A stretch of 27,852 bases of DNA. Origin: a virus. Where the stretch lies: IMG/VR virus record IMGVR_UViG_3300031697_000021, positions 1 through 27,852 of that record. One strand, 5' to 3'. A model generated the notes under the pieces. It made no database searches and was not told the origin of the DNA. It was given only the letters and a program-made list of their open reading frames with translations. The translations under genes were made by a program, and so were the position numbers. Positions 11,414-27,852 of the stretch are shown in pieces. Within the stretch, counting starts at the first letter, position 1. Every line of letters starts with the position of its first letter.

Positions 11414-11908
11414 TTACAATTTTATTTCGGTTCCAAATTCTTGTTTGTACAGTGCCTTGAACTGCTCGGGGTCCTTGCTTTTCATAGCGGCCAAAGCTTT
11501 GGGGTCTTTACGCTGGAAGTCGTCAAATGTCCAGTCTTTGCGCTGGCCGGTGGCGGGGTCGCCAATCTCGTTTACCATCCGGCGCATGGCCGGCAGGCTC
11601 TCGATAATGGTTTTGCCATTGTCGAAGTCTTTTTCCAAAATGGCTTTGTAGGTGTCCTTATGCTCCGCTTTGATGCGACCGGTGCCAATGGCATTGGTAA
11701 GCATATTGTCGATGGCCTCGGTGTGCGCCTGCTTTTCTTTGTCTTCAAAGTCGGCTACCTTAGCTTTCAGGGCTTTGTTTTCGGCTTCCAGGGCATCGGC
11801 ACGGCTCTTTTCGGTATCGGCAGCATCCTGTATGCTTTCTACAACCTTCACGGCTTCGTCCTCGTTGGCTTCGTTTTTCAAACCCAGTTTTTGAAATAGG
11901 TTTTTCAT
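11414..11908 (-). CDS. Putative internally initiated scaffold protein (gpZ-like)
   Basis: An in-frame ATG at 11908 (Met212 of the protease) begins MKNLFQKLGLKNEANEDEAV and would give a 164-residue scaffold lacking the protease domain. It follows directly after a linker (NQYNYLITEN) encoded by AT-rich DNA, the composition usually seen before starts in Bacteroidota. The nested I/Z plan of Mu makes it plausible. No Shine-Dalgarno sequence is present, and none is expected. Confidence 0.5.
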   Translation of the reverse strand: MKNLFQKLGLKNEANEDEAVKVVESIQDAADTEKSRADALEAENKALKAKVADFEDKEKQAHTEAIDNMLTNAIGTGRIKAEHKDTYKAILEKDFDNGKTIIESLPAMRRMVNEIGDPATGQRKDWTFDDFQRKDPKALAAMKSKDPEQFKALYKQEFGTEIKL

Positions 11909-12541
11909 CTTGTTTTCTGTTATTAAATAATTGTATTGATTCATAATCACGGCTGCTTTGCTACGGTTGTCGAGTTCGGCGGGAACCTTTACCTTAACGC
12001 CGTCATAAATTTCGTTGATGATCCCGGCTTTCATTGCCTCCTCGGCGGTAAGCCAGTGGTCTTGCCCATCCATGTACAGTGCTTTCACCTCATCGCTGCT
12101 AAGTTTCATACCGGCAGCCAGGATGTCGGAAAGGATGTTTTCTACCTTTTCCAGGTCGGCAGCGGCCTTGGCCATTTCGGTGGCGTTGCCATAGCCGCCG
12201 CCCGATGCACGGTGCAGCATTAGCATGGCGTAGCGGTTCATCTTTACCGGCTTGCCACACAGGGCAATGATGGCGGCCATGCTGGCGGCCACCCCATCGA
12301 TGTAAATGGTGATGTTGGCCTCGCTGTTGCGAATTACGTTAAAAATGGCAATGCCCTCGAATACCTCACCCCCGTTACTGTTGATGTGTACGTTAATGTT
12401 GCGGTAGCGGCTTTCGGCCTCGGCAAATTCGTTGGCAAAGCTCCGGCTGTTCACATCTTCACTGTACGAGCTAATGATGCCGTAGAGCAATATCTTGCAG
12501 GTGTCTGCCGAGGTAGCCAGTATGTTATAGTATTTTGCCAT
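11414..12541 (-). CDS. ClpP-like prohead protease fused to scaffold (Mu gpI-like)
   Basis: The protein has 375 residues. Residues 1-190 form a ClpP/crotonase-fold S14-type protease: VHINSNGGEVFEG near 51-63 (oxyanion region), IDGVAASMAA at 81-90 with the likely nucleophile Ser87, and MLMLHRASGG with likely His110. Residues 212-375 are a charged coiled-coil scaffold (SRADALEAENKALKAKVADF) ending E-F-G-T-E-I-K-L. In Mu, gpI cleaves the scaffold during prohead maturation and the scaffold (gpZ) is also made from an internal start. The same arrangement is suggested by Met212. The gene is the first major one of the minus-strand late block. Confidence 0.85.
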   Translation of the reverse strand: MAKYYNILATSADTCKILLYGIISSYSEDVNSRSFANEFAEAESRYRNINVHINSNGGEVFEGIAIFNVIRNSEANITIYIDGVAASMAAIIALCGKPVKMNRYAMLMLHRASGGGYGNATEMAKAAADLEKVENILSDILAAGMKLSSDEVKALYMDGQDHWLTAEEAMKAGIINEIYDGVKVKVPAELDNRSKAAVIMNQYNYLITENKMKNLFQKLGLKNEANEDEAVKVVESIQDAADTEKSRADALEAENKALKAKVADFEDKEKQAHTEAIDNMLTNAIGTGRIKAEHKDTYKAILEKDFDNGKTIIESLPAMRRMVNEIGDPATGQRKDWTFDDFQRKDPKALAAMKSKDPEQFKALYKQEFGTEIKL

Positions 12542-12544
12542 CGT

Positions 12545-12607
12545 TTAATTTACTTCGCAAGCGGCTTCGCAACCTTCGCATTTTATTATCTTCTTTTTTA
12601 CGTCCAT
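12545..12607 (-). CDS. Possible Cys-motif micropeptide upstream of the protease
   Basis: A 20-residue frame, MDVKKKIIKCEGCEAACEVN, starts at 12607 and stops 3 bp before the protease ATG. It has a C-x-x-C-x-x-x-C pattern. The frame remains open upstream and contains another Cys/His cluster (F-C-K-K-H-D), so a longer protein with a non-ATG start is possible. Mu and many of its relatives carry small zinc-finger proteins (Com) in head-region loci, but similarity is not demonstrable at this length. It could also be a leader peptide. Confidence 0.3.
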   Translation of the reverse strand: MDVKKKIIKCEGCEAACEVN

Positions 12608-12702
12608 CTTATCATGCTTTTTACAAAATGCGGCAAATCGCTTTATTTCGCCTCGCGTATGTGGCTGCAAATATGATATACATTGAGCTTTATTTGCAAA
12701 TC

Positions 12703-12765
12703 GTTAGTTTGCCATTTAGTTAAATCACTAAATGGTTTAGTTAAATCCCGAAATGACAAACTAAC
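12703..12765. promoter_or_regulatory. Divergent late-gene control region with nested repeats
   Basis: Three kinds of repeat overlap in this 63-bp block. A 9-bp inverted repeat, GTTAGTTTG at 12703-12711 and CAAACTAAC at 12757-12765, bounds it. Inside, CCATTTAGT (12712-12720) is inverted at 12727-12735. The 12-mer TTTAGTTAAATC occurs twice, at 12715-12726 and 12736-12747, with starts 21 bp apart (two helical turns). It lies between the two diverging late blocks and just upstream of a consensus promoter, so it is a strong candidate operator or activator site. No other copy of the 12-mer was noticed in the window. Confidence 0.7.
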
Positions 12766-12767
12766 AA

Positions 12768-12799
12768 TTTGTGCGCAAACCCTTATGCAGCTATGTTTG
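12768..12799 (+). promoter_or_regulatory. Bacteroidota-type promoter of the packaging/head block
   Basis: TTTG at 12768-12771, a 20-bp spacer, and TATGTTTG at 12792-12799 match the Bacteroidota -33/-7 consensus (TTTG, TAnnTTTG) exactly. The small terminase ATG is 20 bp downstream. The adjoining repeat block lies immediately upstream, in the position of an activator site. Confidence 0.75.
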
Positions 12800-12818
12800 T
12801 GGAAAATTTTAAAACAAA

Positions 12819-13298
12819 ATGGCACAATTCAGCAAGGCAGAGCGTGAAAATAAGATTAGCTACGCCAAAAAGCTCTATGTAAAAGGTTTCGACTACCACA
12901 CCATTGCCGACATGCTTGGCGTGTCGGAGGCAACGGTAAGCAAGTGGTCGCAGGAGCGCGATTTTGAAACCGCCCGCCGGGCTTCGCTCATCAGCCTGGG
13001 CGAAATACGCAACGCCATCCTGAACACCTACGACCAGATGCAGCGTGGCGAAAAACCCACCTTCTCGCCCGACCAAATCGTTAAGCTCACCTCCTCGCTC
13101 GAAAAGCTCTCGCCGGTTAACAAATCGCTGGCATGGGTGGCCGAGGGTTTCGACCAGCTCGCCGACAGCTTCCTGGCCGAGGTGCAACGCACCAAAAGCG
13201 AAAAGGGCAAACAAAGGATTTTTGAAGAGCTTAAATCCGTGCGCCGCCACATGGACAGGGTGATGGACAAAATAAACAAGGAGGTGCTGGATGGATAG
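12819..13298 (+). CDS. Terminase small subunit (Mu gp27-like, DUF3486-like)
   Basis: The product has 159 residues. Residues about 10-45 form a helix-turn-helix: basic KLYVKGFDYHTIADMLGVSE followed by A-T-V-S-K-W-S-Q-E-R-D-F. The rest is helical and charged (IVKLTSSLEKLSPVNKSLAW, then E-E-L-K-S-V-R-R-H-M-D-R-V). This is the arrangement of small terminases, which bind phage DNA as a ring and recruit the large subunit. It overlaps the large terminase start by 8 bp and is the first gene after the consensus promoter. In Mu, packaging starts at the phage end and proceeds headful; the same is assumed here. Confidence 0.8.
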   Translation: MAQFSKAERENKISYAKKLYVKGFDYHTIADMLGVSEATVSKWSQERDFETARRASLISLGEIRNAILNTYDQMQRGEKPTFSPDQIVKLTSSLEKLSPVNKSLAWVAEGFDQLADSFLAEVQRTKSEKGKQRIFEELKSVRRHMDRVMDKINKEVLDG

Positions 13299-14799
13299 CG
13301 TTAAGGAAATACGCGCACGCTTCGCCGCCCGTTCGCAGGAAATATACGAAAGCACCTGGAAAAGCTTCGTGCAGGAATCCGAAGAGGATAAACAAAAGCG
13401 CATCGCTTCCCTGCTTAAAGACTATGGGGCTTTCGTTTCGTACTACTTCCCGGCATGGGCTACTTCGGGTAGTGGCAAATTTCATATCGCCGCCGCCAAC
13501 CGAACCGCCCGCGAAGGCAAATTGATGGGTGTATTCGAGTGGGCTCGCGGCCACGCAAAAAGCACCCACTTCGATATTATGATACCGCTGTGGCTGAAAG
13601 CTAAAAAGATGCTGCATGTGATGGTGCTGGTAGGCAAAAACGAAAAGAACGCCCAAACTCTGCTTAGCGACCTGCAGGCCGAACTGCAAAACAACCGCCG
13701 CTATATTGCCGACTTTGGCGAACAACTGCTGTGGGGCAACTGGGAGGAAGGCCGCTTTGCCACCCAGGACGGTTGCGGCTTTTTTGCCTTAGGGCGTGGC
13801 CAAAGCCCCAGGGGCTTGCGCTACCGCCAGCACCGCCCCGATTACATAGTACTTGACGATGTGGACGATGACGAGCTGTGCCGCAACCCCGACCGGGTAA
13901 CACAAATAACCGACTGGGCACTCAAAGCCCTCTACTTTGCCATGGACATGGGCAGGGGCAGGTTTATAGTGGTAGGTAACCGCATTAGCCACAACAGCCT
14001 GGTGGCTCGCCTATCCGATATGCCCGGCGTTTACCACGACCGCGTGAATGCCATTGACGATAAAGGAAACCCGGCATGGCCGGAGAAATACAGCAAAGAA
14101 GAAATACAAGCCGTGGCCGATAAACTTGGCTACCGCGCCTCACAGCAGGAACTCTTTAACAACCCCATCACCGAGGGTGCCGTTTTTAAGCGCGATTGGA
14201 TTATCTACGCACCGGCCCCGCGCATCAATACCTATAATAGTATTATCAGCTACTGCGACCCCAGTTTTAAAAACAGCCGCACCAGCGACTACAAGGCCAT
14301 CATTACCATTGGGCGCAAGGATAAGAACTACTACATCATCAACAGCTTTGTGCGTAAATGCTCCATTGGCGAAATGGTGCGCTACTGGCTCGACTTCCAC
14401 CAGAACCTGCCGCAAACGGCTGTGGTGGGTTACTATATGGAAGCTAACTTTTTGCAGGATTTAATCCTGGACGAGTTCCAGAAGGAAGGAGTTACCCGGG
14501 GCTGGCAGTTCCCGGTAAGAGCCGATGCCCGAAAAAAACCGGATAAGTTTGCCCGCATCGAAGCCATAAGCCCCCTGTTTGAACGCAACCTGGTGCTGAT
14601 TGACGAACGCCTTAAAACCTGCCCCGACACCGAACGCCTCATCGACCAGCTTTTGAGCTTCGAGAAAGGAAGCCGCTCCCACGATGACGGCCCCGATGCA
14701 GTGGAAGGTGCCGTGTGGATTATCAATAACAAGCTCCGCGAATCAACGCCACCGGTGTATATCAAACGAAACCCATTCTCTAACCCAAAAAGATTCTAA
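13291..14799 (+). CDS. Terminase large subunit (Mu gp28-like)
   Basis: The product has 502 residues. The ATPase half has a Walker A-like ARGHAKST at 85-92, a Walker B strand YIVLDDVDDD at 185-194, and a motif-III-like VVGNRI at 227-232. The C-terminal RNase H-like nuclease has candidate metal ligands Asp323 (SYCDPSF), Glu384 (YYMEANF) and Asp466/Asp469 (HDDGPDA). It translocates DNA into the prohead and cuts it. The full family length is present with no frameshift. The stop codon is followed immediately by a 20-bp palindrome. Confidence 0.9.
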   Translation: MDSVKEIRARFAARSQEIYESTWKSFVQESEEDKQKRIASLLKDYGAFVSYYFPAWATSGSGKFHIAAANRTAREGKLMGVFEWARGHAKSTHFDIMIPLWLKAKKMLHVMVLVGKNEKNAQTLLSDLQAELQNNRRYIADFGEQLLWGNWEEGRFATQDGCGFFALGRGQSPRGLRYRQHRPDYIVLDDVDDDELCRNPDRVTQITDWALKALYFAMDMGRGRFIVVGNRISHNSLVARLSDMPGVYHDRVNAIDDKGNPAWPEKYSKEEIQAVADKLGYRASQQELFNNPITEGAVFKRDWIIYAPAPRINTYNSIISYCDPSFKNSRTSDYKAIITIGRKDKNYYIINSFVRKCSIGEMVRYWLDFHQNLPQTAVVGYYMEANFLQDLILDEFQKEGVTRGWQFPVRADARKKPDKFARIEAISPLFERNLVLIDERLKTCPDTERLIDQLLSFEKGSRSHDDGPDAVEGAVWIINNKLRESTPPVYIKRNPFSNPKRF

Positions 14800-19057: not shown

Positions 19058-19285
19058 TTACTTACCATCGTGCACCTGCAACTTTACCAGCAGTTGCTGC
19101 ATGTTGCGGTAGTGGCTAAGCACCGTAGAGCGGTACTCTTTGTTGTAGCACAAATCATCGGGGTAGCATATCCAGGCATCGAAAAGCATGTCGAGGGTTT
19201 CGATGTAGTTTTGGGGCTCGTCCCAGGCGGTAATGTACTCTTTTACCAGGGCGGCCACTTCGGCTTGTTTGCATTGTGCTTCCAT
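19058..19285 (-). CDS. Small acidic protein, last gene of the early block
   Basis: The product is 75 residues, helical and acidic: AEVAALVKEYITAWDEPQNY, then L-D-M-L-F-D-A-W-I-C-Y-P and L-S-H-Y-R-N-M-Q-Q-L-L-V-K-L. It overlaps the antirepressor-like gene at a single base (TAATG-type junction) and is probably translated together with it. No family is recognised. Its place at the end of the early operon suggests a regulatory or accessory role. Confidence 0.6.
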   Translation of the reverse strand: MEAQCKQAEVAALVKEYITAWDEPQNYIETLDMLFDAWICYPDDLCYNKEYRSTVLSHYRNMQQLLVKLQVHDGK

Positions 19286-19815
19286 TAGGCTTGTCCTCCT
19301 ATCAGTTTATGGGTAATGCTAAGGCGCACTTCGCGGTTATCAATTTGGGCCACATCGGCCAGTATGCTTACCAGGCGCGTGGGCGTAAGGCGGTTGTGGC
19401 TGCGTGGCTTGGGTAGTGCTTTTGCCGCTTGCGGCCACAGGGTGGTTTGCTTGCCTGCCTCCAGGCGGCTTATCACCAGTTCCTCTGCCCAGTCCCTAAA
19501 CAGGCGGGCTTGCTTACTCTTAATAAAAAAGCCCAGGCGAACTATGCCGCGCTTAGTCCAGTAAACTTTGTTGTGGGGCGCGTTTGGCTCGCTGTGACAA
19601 ATAGTCACAGCGGAAACAAAATGCTTACCATGAATAAGTTCACTTGAATTTCTGATTTTTGCCTGTCGAATTGAATATTCAGAAGTTCCATATCCAATCG
19701 CAACCTCTTTCATCGACATTAAGAACTCGTGGTTCTCATCGGGAATGATTTTTACAGTAACTTCATCAGTTACTTTTAATGGCAGTAAGTTGCCGGCTTT
19801 TTGTGAATTTTGCAT
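19285..19815 (-). CDS. Antirepressor-like (BRO/ORF6N-type) DNA-binding regulator
   Basis: The product has 176 residues. Residues about 30-115 contain F-L-M-S-M-K-E-V-A-I-G-Y-G, S-E-Y-S-I-R-Q-A-K-I-R-N and H-G-K-H-F-V, then V-Y-W-T-K-R-G-I-V-R-L-G-F-F-I and A-R-L-F-R-D-W-A-E-E-L-V. This matches the phage antirepressor N-domain plan (a helix-turn-helix followed by the T-x-R-G-x-x-R-L/F-x-R-D-W segment). The C-terminal part is basic and helical. It may counter the repressor or control the switch to late genes. No Mor/C-type late activator was recognised elsewhere, so it is a candidate for that role (inference). Confidence 0.65.
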   Translation of the reverse strand: MQNSQKAGNLLPLKVTDEVTVKIIPDENHEFLMSMKEVAIGYGTSEYSIRQAKIRNSSELIHGKHFVSAVTICHSEPNAPHNKVYWTKRGIVRLGFFIKSKQARLFRDWAEELVISRLEAGKQTTLWPQAAKALPKPRSHNRLTPTRLVSILADVAQIDNREVRLSITHKLIGGQA

Positions 19816-20037: not shown

Positions 20038-20709
20038 TCAATTATCTAAAATTTTCAGCATATCAAATTCTAATATTCTAACTTGATCATCAATTCGACA
20101 GAAAAGACTATTTAAAGTATCATTTTTCACTCTAATGTATCTATCGAATTCACGAGAACTATTGAAATTATGTGTTCGCTCATTCTTTGCTTTTACCTGT
20201 TTTTCTTTTTTAATCTCTAATTGAACCTCATCATAGGTATCTTTTAGCCATAATAAAAACTCATTTACCATTGGTTTTAAATTTGAATCCAATATTTCTT
20301 GCATAAATTCATTTGATAAATAGTATTCCATCATGTTAAATTCACCTCTATAAAGATTAATCAAAATTAAATATATTTGACATAAATTATAATGGATGGC
20401 ACTTTCTTTTTCATAACCTTTTTCTCGGTGATAAACACTGGATTTGGATCCATTAATGAAAATTTCATACTTGTATCTTTCAATTATTGAATCATAATGG
20501 TCTTTTGGAAATACCTCAATTTCGGATAATGCCTTATTAAAATATCCTTTTCTTGAAAGATAATTCACTTTTTTAGCGTACCAATCTGGGTTGAAATGTT
20601 TGTCAAGAGCTTTGTTAATAAGGCCTATTGATTCCGCCAAATTACCTTGGTTAAAATTCATTGTTGCTTCACGAATAATATCGTTTGCTTCATTGTAATT
20701 ATTTTCCAT
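20038..20709 (-). CDS. AT-rich TPR-like protein, cargo gene (moron)
   Basis: The product has 223 residues. The N-terminal 60 residues look like tetratricopeptide helices (IIREATMNFNQGNLAESIGL, then L-I-N-K-A-L-D-K, Y-F-N-K-A-L-S-E-I-E). The remainder is helical, and the C-terminus is charged. There is no signal peptide or catalytic motif. Base composition is much more AT-rich than both neighbours. It has its own -7 box upstream and its own terminator downstream, which together mark a transferable cargo unit inside the early operon. Host-interaction or phage-exclusion roles are possible from the context only. Confidence 0.75.
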   Translation of the reverse strand: MENNYNEANDIIREATMNFNQGNLAESIGLINKALDKHFNPDWYAKKVNYLSRKGYFNKALSEIEVFPKDHYDSIIERYKYEIFINGSKSSVYHREKGYEKESAIHYNLCQIYLILINLYRGEFNMMEYYLSNEFMQEILDSNLKPMVNEFLLWLKDTYDEVQLEIKKEKQVKAKNERTHNFNSSREFDRYIRVKNDTLNSLFCRIDDQVRILEFDMLKILDN

Positions 20710-25178: not shown

Positions 25179-25370
25179 TTATTTATCCCTGTAATAGCCG
25201 TAGCGGTTTATGATTGCCCACAGCGTGCCGTTGCTCAATCCGTAGCGGTTCATCAGCGTTAGCATAGCAAACTGCAGGCTGATGTTACGCTTCATAAGCG
25301 TATCAAAATCGGCACGTATCTGTGTGTTTCGGCTGCGCTTGGCCGCGCTAAGCTCACAGGGTATCTTCAT
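25179..25370 (-). CDS. Small helix-turn-helix-like early protein
   Basis: The product is 63 residues and basic. The C-terminal half (FAMLTLMNRYGLSNGTLWAI, then I-N-R-Y-G-Y) has the helix-turn-helix look of a DNA-binding peptide, with G-L-S as the turn. It starts 3 bp after the ATPase stop, so it is coupled to the transposition genes. It may bind phage or host DNA, but there is no close family match by eye. Confidence 0.55.
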   Translation of the reverse strand: MKIPCELSAAKRSRNTQIRADFDTLMKRNISLQFAMLTLMNRYGLSNGTLWAIINRYGYYRDK

Positions 25371-26378: not shown

Positions 26379-27737
26379 CTAATCTGCTATTGGAATTTCA
26401 AATGCTTCGCCAGTGTCAGGGTCAACCAGTGTGCGGTACTTTACCTCTTTCTTGGCCGATTCGGCCTGCGCTACCAGCCTCTTGAACTCGGCCACCGCAT
26501 CCGGGCTTTGCACACCGGCCTTGTCCATCATCTCCTCGGCATTCAGCGTGGCCTTGTCTAAGCGACCCGTAAATTTGCGTCCTACCAGCGGCTCGTTTAT
26601 CAGCTTCTCAACGCCTTCGGTGTCGGGCTGCTGCTTGTAGGTGTTCTCTACCTCCGCGTTGCGGCGTTTGGCCTGGTCAATCACGGCGTTTTGGAATGCA
26701 CGCTGCTTGTTGTACTCCGTAGTGTCGCCCTCGAAGGTGGCAAACATCGGAACCCGCTGTTTTAACTCCCACAGGCCGTGGCAGCTATGCCCCTGCCACA
26801 CTGCCACCGGCTGCCCGTATTGGCCGGCATACACCAGCACCTCAGTTCCGGTGGGTATGGCCAGCCAGGTAGCGGCAGCCGCATCCGGCTTGCTTGCGTT
26901 GGGCATATAGCGGTATTTATAGCCATCGGCATGGATGTCCACCCCGTTGATGGTCTTTTTTACCTCGTGCAGGGTGCCTGCCAGCCATAGCAGGGTGGCA
27001 TAGTCCAGTTGCGGGGTCTTGCTTTGCTTTTCGTCCCACAGTTGCGCCGGGCTTTTGCCCAGGGGCTTATCTTCGTAGGTATCTATAATGTGGCTGTTCC
27101 AGTCGCTGATGCACTCGGTGCGAAGCCATGCCGAAGCCTGTGCGATGCTGCGGCTGTTGCGCTTGCCCTTGTCCAAAAAGCTGTCGCCGGGGCGGCTGTT
27201 GCGGCTTGTAGCCGTACGGTTCATGCCGTTCCAGCCTTTGAGGTGGCGCAGATATACGTTGTCCATCATTCCAATCAATGCCTCCACAAACTTGGTGCGG
27301 GCTATGCCCTTTTGGCTGGGCAGCACGTGTATCTTGTTGTCCTCGCACCAGCGTTTCAATTCGGTGCTTCCGGGGCCGTCATCCATCTGCACAATATAGG
27401 GCTTATACCCGGCCTGCAGTATGGCTCCTTTCAGGGCGGTAATCATCAGGTCGCCGCTTTCGCTTACGCCGTGGTGCAGTTCCTGGTGGAGCAGGGCAAA
27501 GGTGGCATAATCGAATACCTTAACCACATATATATGCTGCATTACTTTTTTGCTAACTGGGTCGAACACGTTTTCGTTGTGCGCCGTGCCATCTATGCCC
27601 CAGCAGTAGTTTTTTTGCGTGGGGTAGCGGCGGTCGATGGTGGGAACCACGCCGTGGTAAAAACCGGCATAGCTGCTGCGCTTCAATTCCAGGCGGTCGC
27701 GGTTGCGGCGCAGGTAGCCGCTTATCCCAGCTTGCAT
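26379..27737 (-). CDS. MuA-type DDE transposase, N-terminally truncated
   Basis: The product has 452 residues. The catalytic core has Asp49 (CWGIDGT), Asp119 or Asp120 (QMDDGPGS) and Glu152 (KFVEALIG), the DDE triad of the MuA/retroviral integrase fold, and a later beta-barrel-like region with T-G-T-E-V-L-V-Y-A. A C-terminal helical part (A-E-F-K-R-L-V-A-Q-A-E) may interact with the ATPase. MuA-type proteins usually have about 200 more residues of end-binding and enhancer-binding domains before the first Asp; here only 48 are present. An in-frame stop (near 27793) precedes the ATG. It may be inactive alone. The enzyme would join phage ends to target DNA for lysogeny and replication. Confidence 0.85.
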   Translation of the reverse strand: MQAGISGYLRRNRDRLELKRSSYAGFYHGVVPTIDRRYPTQKNYCWGIDGTAHNENVFDPVSKKVMQHIYVVKVFDYATFALLHQELHHGVSESGDLMITALKGAILQAGYKPYIVQMDDGPGSTELKRWCEDNKIHVLPSQKGIARTKFVEALIGMMDNVYLRHLKGWNGMNRTATSRNSRPGDSFLDKGKRNSRSIAQASAWLRTECISDWNSHIIDTYEDKPLGKSPAQLWDEKQSKTPQLDYATLLWLAGTLHEVKKTINGVDIHADGYKYRYMPNASKPDAAAATWLAIPTGTEVLVYAGQYGQPVAVWQGHSCHGLWELKQRVPMFATFEGDTTEYNKQRAFQNAVIDQAKRRNAEVENTYKQQPDTEGVEKLINEPLVGRKFTGRLDKATLNAEEMMDKAGVQSPDAVAEFKRLVAQAESAKKEVKYRTLVDPDTGEAFEIPIAD

Positions 27738-27852
27738 TTTCCGAATTGTAACAATTTGATAATTAGCTATCGACAGACGGGGTAGTCGTTTTCTGGGACT
27801 ACACTTTTGCGTATCTCCTAATTTTCATTCAGAAATATTGGGGCATGGTTTG
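27738..27852. other. AT-rich right-edge segment, likely junction
   Basis: No gene is seen. The sequence is AT-rich compared with the transposase gene and contains GTAGTC (27782-27787) and its complement GACTAC (27797-27802) near CCCAGAAAAC. This could be an insertion-sequence end or unrelated flanking DNA. The phage's own terminal sequence cannot be identified. Confidence 0.4.

Follow-up and report, generated by a model that had tools for sequence, protein, structure and literature searches.

A mirror-symmetric promoter pair lies between the two late gene blocks

By its gene content, the window (the whole stretch of viral DNA analyzed here, 27,852 nucleotides) is a Mu-like, transposable phage of Bacteroidota, with matches to Portal_Mu (1.6e-80), Phage_Mu_F (2.7e-8), and AAA_22 (2.5e-12). 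The rve match is weak (1.3e-3), yet the window transposase clusters with the transposases of 19 other genomes. Early genes, including those for MuA/MuB-type proteins, are on the minus strand and run from the far end of the window. The late genes form two diverging blocks: the protease of the minus block is followed by capsid and tail genes, and the plus block encodes a TerS-like protein, the large terminase, a Mu-type portal, and an F-like protein. The genes nearest the divide are as follows.

11414..12541, minus strand: ClpP-like head maturation protease, first gene of the minus late block (Pfam CLP_protease, 4e-30; PHROG head maturation protease, 1.7e-78)
12819..13298, plus strand: small HTH protein, TerS-like, first gene of the plus late block (Pfam Terminase_5, 2.7e-6; PHROG DNA binding protein, 2.1e-12)
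13291..14799, plus strand: large terminase (PHROG terminase large subunit, 1.5e-79)

Elsewhere in the window, the MuA-like transposase frame (26379-27852) has its start at 27737 with a stop just upstream, and the protein lacks ~200 N-terminal residues present in relatives; a frameshift, a truncation, or the contig end may each account for this. The early operon also encodes a 223-aa protein (20038-20709) without a PHROG match, possibly cargo.

Between the diverging blocks, positions 12668-12799 form a mirror-symmetric divergent promoter pair with two dyad operators, spaced by 21 bp, at its center.

12668..12675, minus strand (read 12675 to 12668): -7 box of the minus promoter, CATATTTG, one mismatch to TAnnTTTG
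12697..12700, minus strand: -33 box of the minus promoter, TTTG, spacer 21 bp
12697..12711: left outer arm, CAAATCGTTAGTTTG, complementary to the right outer arm at 14/15 bases
12703..12711 and 12757..12765: outer 9-bp inverted repeat, GTTAGTTTG/CAAACTAAC
12712..12720 and 12727..12735: inner 9-bp inverted repeat, CCATTTAGT/ACTAAATGG
12712..12735: putative operator unit 1, dyad CCATTTAGT-TAAATC-ACTAAATGG (9-N6-9)
12715 and 12736 (starts): 12-bp direct repeats, TTTAGTTAAATC, spacing exactly 21 bp
12736..12755: putative operator unit 2, TTTAGTTAAATCCCGAAATG, a weaker dyad 21 bp beyond unit 1
12757..12771: right outer arm, CAAACTAACAATTTG
12768..12771, plus strand: -33 box of the plus promoter, TTTG, spacer 20 bp
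12792..12799, plus strand: -7 box of the plus promoter, TATGTTTG, perfect

Promoters of the Bacteroidota primary sigma factor (sigma-ABfr) consist of a -7 TAnnTTTG and a -33 TTTG element (PMC7366714). The perfect plus-strand copy named in a preliminary description of this DNA, TTTG-N20-TATGTTTG downstream of the repeats, is present at 12768-12799, and a scan of both strands returned it as the only perfect promoter in the window. Because 0.56 perfect promoters are expected in each shuffled window, this promoter alone is not significant. The same description saw no equally good promoter for the minus-strand block, a statement that is literally correct but misleading, as TTTG-N21-CATATTTG, with a single mismatch, sits at the mirror position. 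Given this placement, the element is a symmetric divergent promoter with facing -7 boxes that span 132 bp from outer edge to outer edge, rather than a one-way promoter with a helper site. The window holds a single divergent pair of such quality, and none arose in 200 shuffles. Transcription is predicted to start at ~12803 (plus) and ~12664 (minus). The proposal of a control site between diverging late blocks, served by one regulator, is retained; the accompanying idea that the minus block is promoterless and merely "enabled" is not, since both directions have promoters of equal -33/-7 geometry placed symmetrically about the operators.

The repeats themselves agree base for base with those first described: the 12-bp direct copies and both 9-bp inverted repeats, inner (12712/12727) and outer (12703/12757). 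At 90% identity, the direct repeats reach a length of 20 bp, and the outer 9-bp pair lies inside a 36-nt inverted repeat (12697-12771, 78% complementary). Both the inverted-repeat and the direct-repeat scores exceed those of all 200 dinucleotide shuffles (p = 0.005 each), and the operator motif is found at only these two places in the window, against 0.04 expected with up to three mismatches allowed. Unit 1 has the form of a Mor/C-type site, that is, a dyad with a ~6-bp spacer upstream of a promoter, and the predicted minus start is roughly 59 bp downstream of it. We rejected a four-unit reading of the outer arms (GCAAA-N7-TTTGC, ACAAA-N7-TTTGT): they share bases with the -33 boxes, and the palindrome signal, when averaged as described below, cannot tell the two apart. 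The sole Rfam match, to a miRNA precursor, is far under its cut-off and arises from the hairpin.

The spacing between facing promoters is quantized in related phages

Terminase, capsid, and portal served as queries to gather relatives, and we also examined annotated phages; TerS as the sole query found no relatives. The protease and terminase blocks point away from each other in 41 of the 43 scorable related loci (window excluded), and the divergent protease/TerS order recurs in nearly all of ~65 further loci. The gap between the blocks is usually 130-240 bp.

Across 93 non-redundant gaps, we tallied the outer-edge distance between facing -7 boxes. Distances of 131-133 bp occur in 23 gaps (1.3 expected, maximum of 5 in 200 shuffles) and distances of 109-112 bp in 25 (1.9 expected, maximum of 6), and the 89-bp bin holds 8, the largest bin in 200 shuffles being 6. 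The distance between facing -7 boxes is quantized at about 89, 110, or 131-133 bp, and the 21-22 bp steps between these classes equal the operator period. A strict -7 pair at any of the three spacings is absent from 38 of the 93 gaps; relaxing the box rule recovers more pairs at 110 bp. The loci of the 132-bp class were picked by their -7 boxes only, yet a TTTG at -33 recurs among them at exactly N20.

Sequences of the 132-bp class are essentially unalignable between their -33 boxes (mean identity of 0.45 versus 0.40 for shuffles), indicating that spacing is conserved without sequence. The exact window operator is found in none of the relatives, and a search of 2.9 million viral contigs with the exact operator motif gave 12 matches, about chance level and with no clear kin. 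A motif search in related prophages, suggested earlier as a check on the site, is thus borne out for the architecture, which recurs, and not for the operator sequence, which is not kept. Significant direct repeats with a spacing of 21-22 bp are present in the window, L043, L013, L060, L002, and L049, and strong central dyads are seen in the window, L004, L019, L038, L039, L040, L042, L043, and others. Averaged palindrome centers fall at 0 and ±10.5 bp from the axis in the 110-bp class, at 0 and ±11 bp in the 132-bp class, and at 0 in the 89-bp class. Together with the spacings, these centers suggest that each promoter is shifted about one helical turn outward in the 132-bp relative to the 110-bp class; the 89-bp class may have one operator fewer.

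Two smaller features of the related gaps were also observed. The dyads of L039 and L040 differ at symmetric positions (CCTCTGC..GCAGAGG versus CCTATG..CATAGG), as if both sides change together, and the TerS N-termini of these two loci are identical across the aligned HTH region. Gaps of the 89-bp class and its kin contain a minus-strand tRNA-Met (CAT) gene, placed ahead of the protease gene and after the late promoter (L096:2697-2769, L120:2687-2759, L143:2705-2779, L097:2705-2778, L117:2668-2740); given this position inside the gap, the tRNA may be made within the late leader.

In a sister group, operator sequence tracks a small early HTH protein

That each lineage has an operator sequence of its own suggests a co-evolving, phage-encoded binder. 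We examined this in a sister group with the 110-bp spacing, whose operator, TGmAAcnnTTGCACAC, is present as two copies 21 bp apart. The pattern is matched in 12 of 18 genomes and, in those 12, at this site only. A closer look at individual sister-group genomes showed an HTH protein of 94-96 aa as the product of the last early gene, with homologues found in 20 of 34 records. Among 18 phages, operator similarity tracks this early HTH protein (rho 0.51; partial on TerS 0.47, Mantel p = 0.002, a p-value that is indicative because the operators were extracted partly by eye). The test was also run on a smaller first set. In L115 (helix ERAMYK) and L242 (ESTMYR), the recognition helix and the operator are both changed.

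The adjacent TerS-like HTH protein (12819-13298) might instead bind the site and control its own divergent operons. It has a DNA-binding domain, its gene adjoins the site, and it is universal (21/21 genomes); moreover, the TerS helices of the window and L089 differ, as do the operators of the two. In the sister group, however, after correction for the early HTH protein, similarity of the TerS HTH does not track that of the operators (partial 0.16, p = 0.20, 18 phages). Individual phages separate the two proteins as well: L115 keeps an ordinary TerS helix while its operator and early HTH protein are both changed, and L266 has a diverged TerS helix with an ordinary operator. We consider TerS an unlikely binder.

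The antirepressor-like Bro-N protein (19285-19815), put forward in the preliminary description, is a still poorer fit. In the window (19058-19815) and in the L013 and L081 contigs, a Bro-N-like gene and then a small gene close the early operon. This placement at the operon end, shared in part by Peternella_1, speaks for such a role, but Bro-N occurs in only 3 of 22 related genomes though the site architecture is widespread, and L081 carries the HTH family besides Bro-N. A role for Bro-N as the regulator is accordingly very improbable. The alternative named alongside it, a Mor-like regulator, fits better, with an HTH family in the relatives and weak matches to Mor and to PHROG activators.

The dyad could also serve DNA topology, as a central gyrase site or a packaging start. 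Phage Mu has a strong gyrase site (SGS) at its genome center (PMC3820752), and the site described here is near the middle of many of these genomes. The site of a conserved host enzyme should neither differ in sequence between phages nor covary with one of their proteins, however, and the related hankyphage is packaged from its left, repressor end (PMC12135933), which makes a packaging role unlikely. Either function would leave the fixed spacing to the promoter boxes unexplained, and we give this reading almost no credence.

A Mor-like candidate is encoded in the early operon

The likely regulator is a small phage-encoded early HTH protein. In the window, the binder is probably the following gene product.

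25179..25370, minus strand: candidate regulator, 63-aa HTH protein of the early operon, adjoining the MuB-like gene

This protein matches Pfam Mor (PF08765) with E = 0.0018 and 18.7 bits; as the gathering cut-off is 24.9, it is not filed as a member of PF08765. PHROG late transcriptional activators are matched at 0.0018 and 0.01. The alignment covers only the C-terminal part of the Mor profile (50-94 of 107), and the N-terminal dimerization domain of Mor is absent from the 63-aa protein. Its predicted structure is a helix plus an HTH (pLDDT 83), with helices at 5-27, 32-43, and 47-55 that follow the same pattern as those of the sister-group protein (8-26, 32-44, and 48-58). Foldseek returned no significant match for the window protein; weak matches included Mor (1rr7, TMq 0.53, E = 3.9) and C (9l0x, TMq 0.62, E = 4.5), with the MuA I-beta domain ranked above both. 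For the sister-group protein there was likewise no significant Foldseek match, and the MuA I-beta domain, Mor, and C were all absent. With a Mor match under the cut-off and no significant fold match, we regard 25179-25370 as a Mor-like candidate rather than a demonstrated member of the Mor family.

A search for relatives of the window protein found only the contig of L089, whose homologue is 44% identical and itself matches Mor (0.0011). The homologue also matches PHROG 17154 (1.7e-4), a family of unknown function that contains the hankyphage p00 protein (3.8e-46) and is matched by L091 (2.8e-12) and a P. gingivalis phage protein (1e-11). Between the window protein and PHROG 17154 there is no match at E up to 1, so that the link runs via L089; profile comparison of the window/L089 family with the p00 family gives a probability of 74% (E = 2.8e-5). 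By profile, the sister-group HTH family is weakly linked to the window regulator. In the wider group of the window, the small HTH family is found in p00, the P. gingivalis phage, TCUEAP3, L046, L048, and L054, often as the last early gene; the gene for the window candidate adjoins the MuB-like gene instead of closing the early operon.

Several of these phages also encode, away from the early operon and mostly near a contig end, a second family of small HTH proteins (80 aa, ...YIVALLxxKYxVSERKVYxLIKRF): L173-L174 (39276-39518, L048 contig), L181-L182 (32884-33135, L054 contig), L177-L178 (28282-28524, L104 contig), and L192-L193 (1562-1807, L110 contig).

Activation from a shared center could start both late blocks together

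We think it reasonably probable that 12668-12799 is the late control center, at which the early HTH protein binds the operators, recruits polymerase in both directions, and makes the two blocks start together. Early transcription would supply the small HTH protein, probably 25179-25370, dimers of which would occupy the two operators between the -33 boxes; at a spacing of 21 bp, or two helical turns, they would lie on one face of the helix. The bound protein would then recruit RNA polymerase to both promoters. With polymerase brought to both, the protease/capsid/tail and terminase/portal blocks would begin to be transcribed at the same time. Activation rather than repression, as well as the timing, is what we infer from the sequence; both promoters lie close to the consensus and may not require an activator.

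The same near-consensus promoters could fire unaided, as expected if the site were an operator for repression, at which an early or lysogenic repressor holds both late promoters shut until removed. In the 110-bp class, the operators directly adjoin the -33 boxes, and in the related hankyphage, silencing of the CI-like repressor raises the expression of most phage genes (PMC12135933). A lysogenic repressor should bind the early promoter too, however, and the sister-group operator has no second location in the genome, the early region included, which makes such a repressor unlikely. Furthermore, the candidate binder is an early protein whose nearest named family, Mor/C, activates. Repression is therefore a reading to which we assign a rather low probability, and we retain activation by the early HTH protein.

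Late control of this kind would be a new variant form of the Mor/C type. Like the Mor and C proteins of phage Mu, which act at Pm and at Plys, PI, PP, and Pmom, the candidate is a small phage HTH protein from the early/middle part of the genome, with a dyad upstream of the promoter on which it would act. Mor binds a 16-bp 5-N6-5 element centered at -43.5 at one middle promoter (PMC4390567); this element and unit 1 share a 6-bp spacer. The Mu C protein acts at four separate late promoters (PMC4461284). Mu thus has several one-way late promoters, whereas the window has one site with two diverging promoters and tandem operators. Mor has 129 aa, as opposed to the 63 aa of the window candidate, which is a helix plus HTH only, and Pm is without a -35 box, unlike the window promoters with their -33 boxes.

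The genome plan of the window, with divergent protease/terminase blocks, is shared by hankyphage p00, Peternella_1, fF4, TCUEAP3, and P. gingivalis prophages. Hankyphage p00 has the HTH family as its last early gene, but its gap differs in sequence, with boxes 146 bp apart. In the text of the hankyphage paper, which studied only the lysogeny repressor, we found no late-gene activator (PMC12135933), nor did we find in the literature a description of late-gene activation in transposable Bacteroidota phages, including the widespread gut hankyphage. With the site, its geometry, and a candidate regulator now named, the model is testable in the existing B. thetaiotaomicron hankyphage system. In a broader form, to which we give even weight for and against, one central symmetric element would switch both virion-gene blocks across the transposable Bacteroidota phages, with spacing quantized by two helical turns (~89, 110, 132 bp) and a dedicated early HTH protein and its operators co-evolving into many recognition pairs; this would be a class of bidirectional late activator, naturally varied into orthogonal forms, that has not been described before. 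Matched regulator/operator pairs would supply compact two-way promoters for Bacteroides genetics.

The late blocks on either side of the site have different nearest relatives

Across 11414-14799, the two late blocks differ in their closest kin. The large terminase of the window is 75% identical to that of L089, while the capsids of the two share 28%; conversely, the window capsid is 68% identical to that of L033, and the large terminases 33%. These different affinities indicate that the control gap is a recombination junction at which the two blocks have been swapped. With a two-way switch in common, either late block could be replaced without loss of co-regulation.
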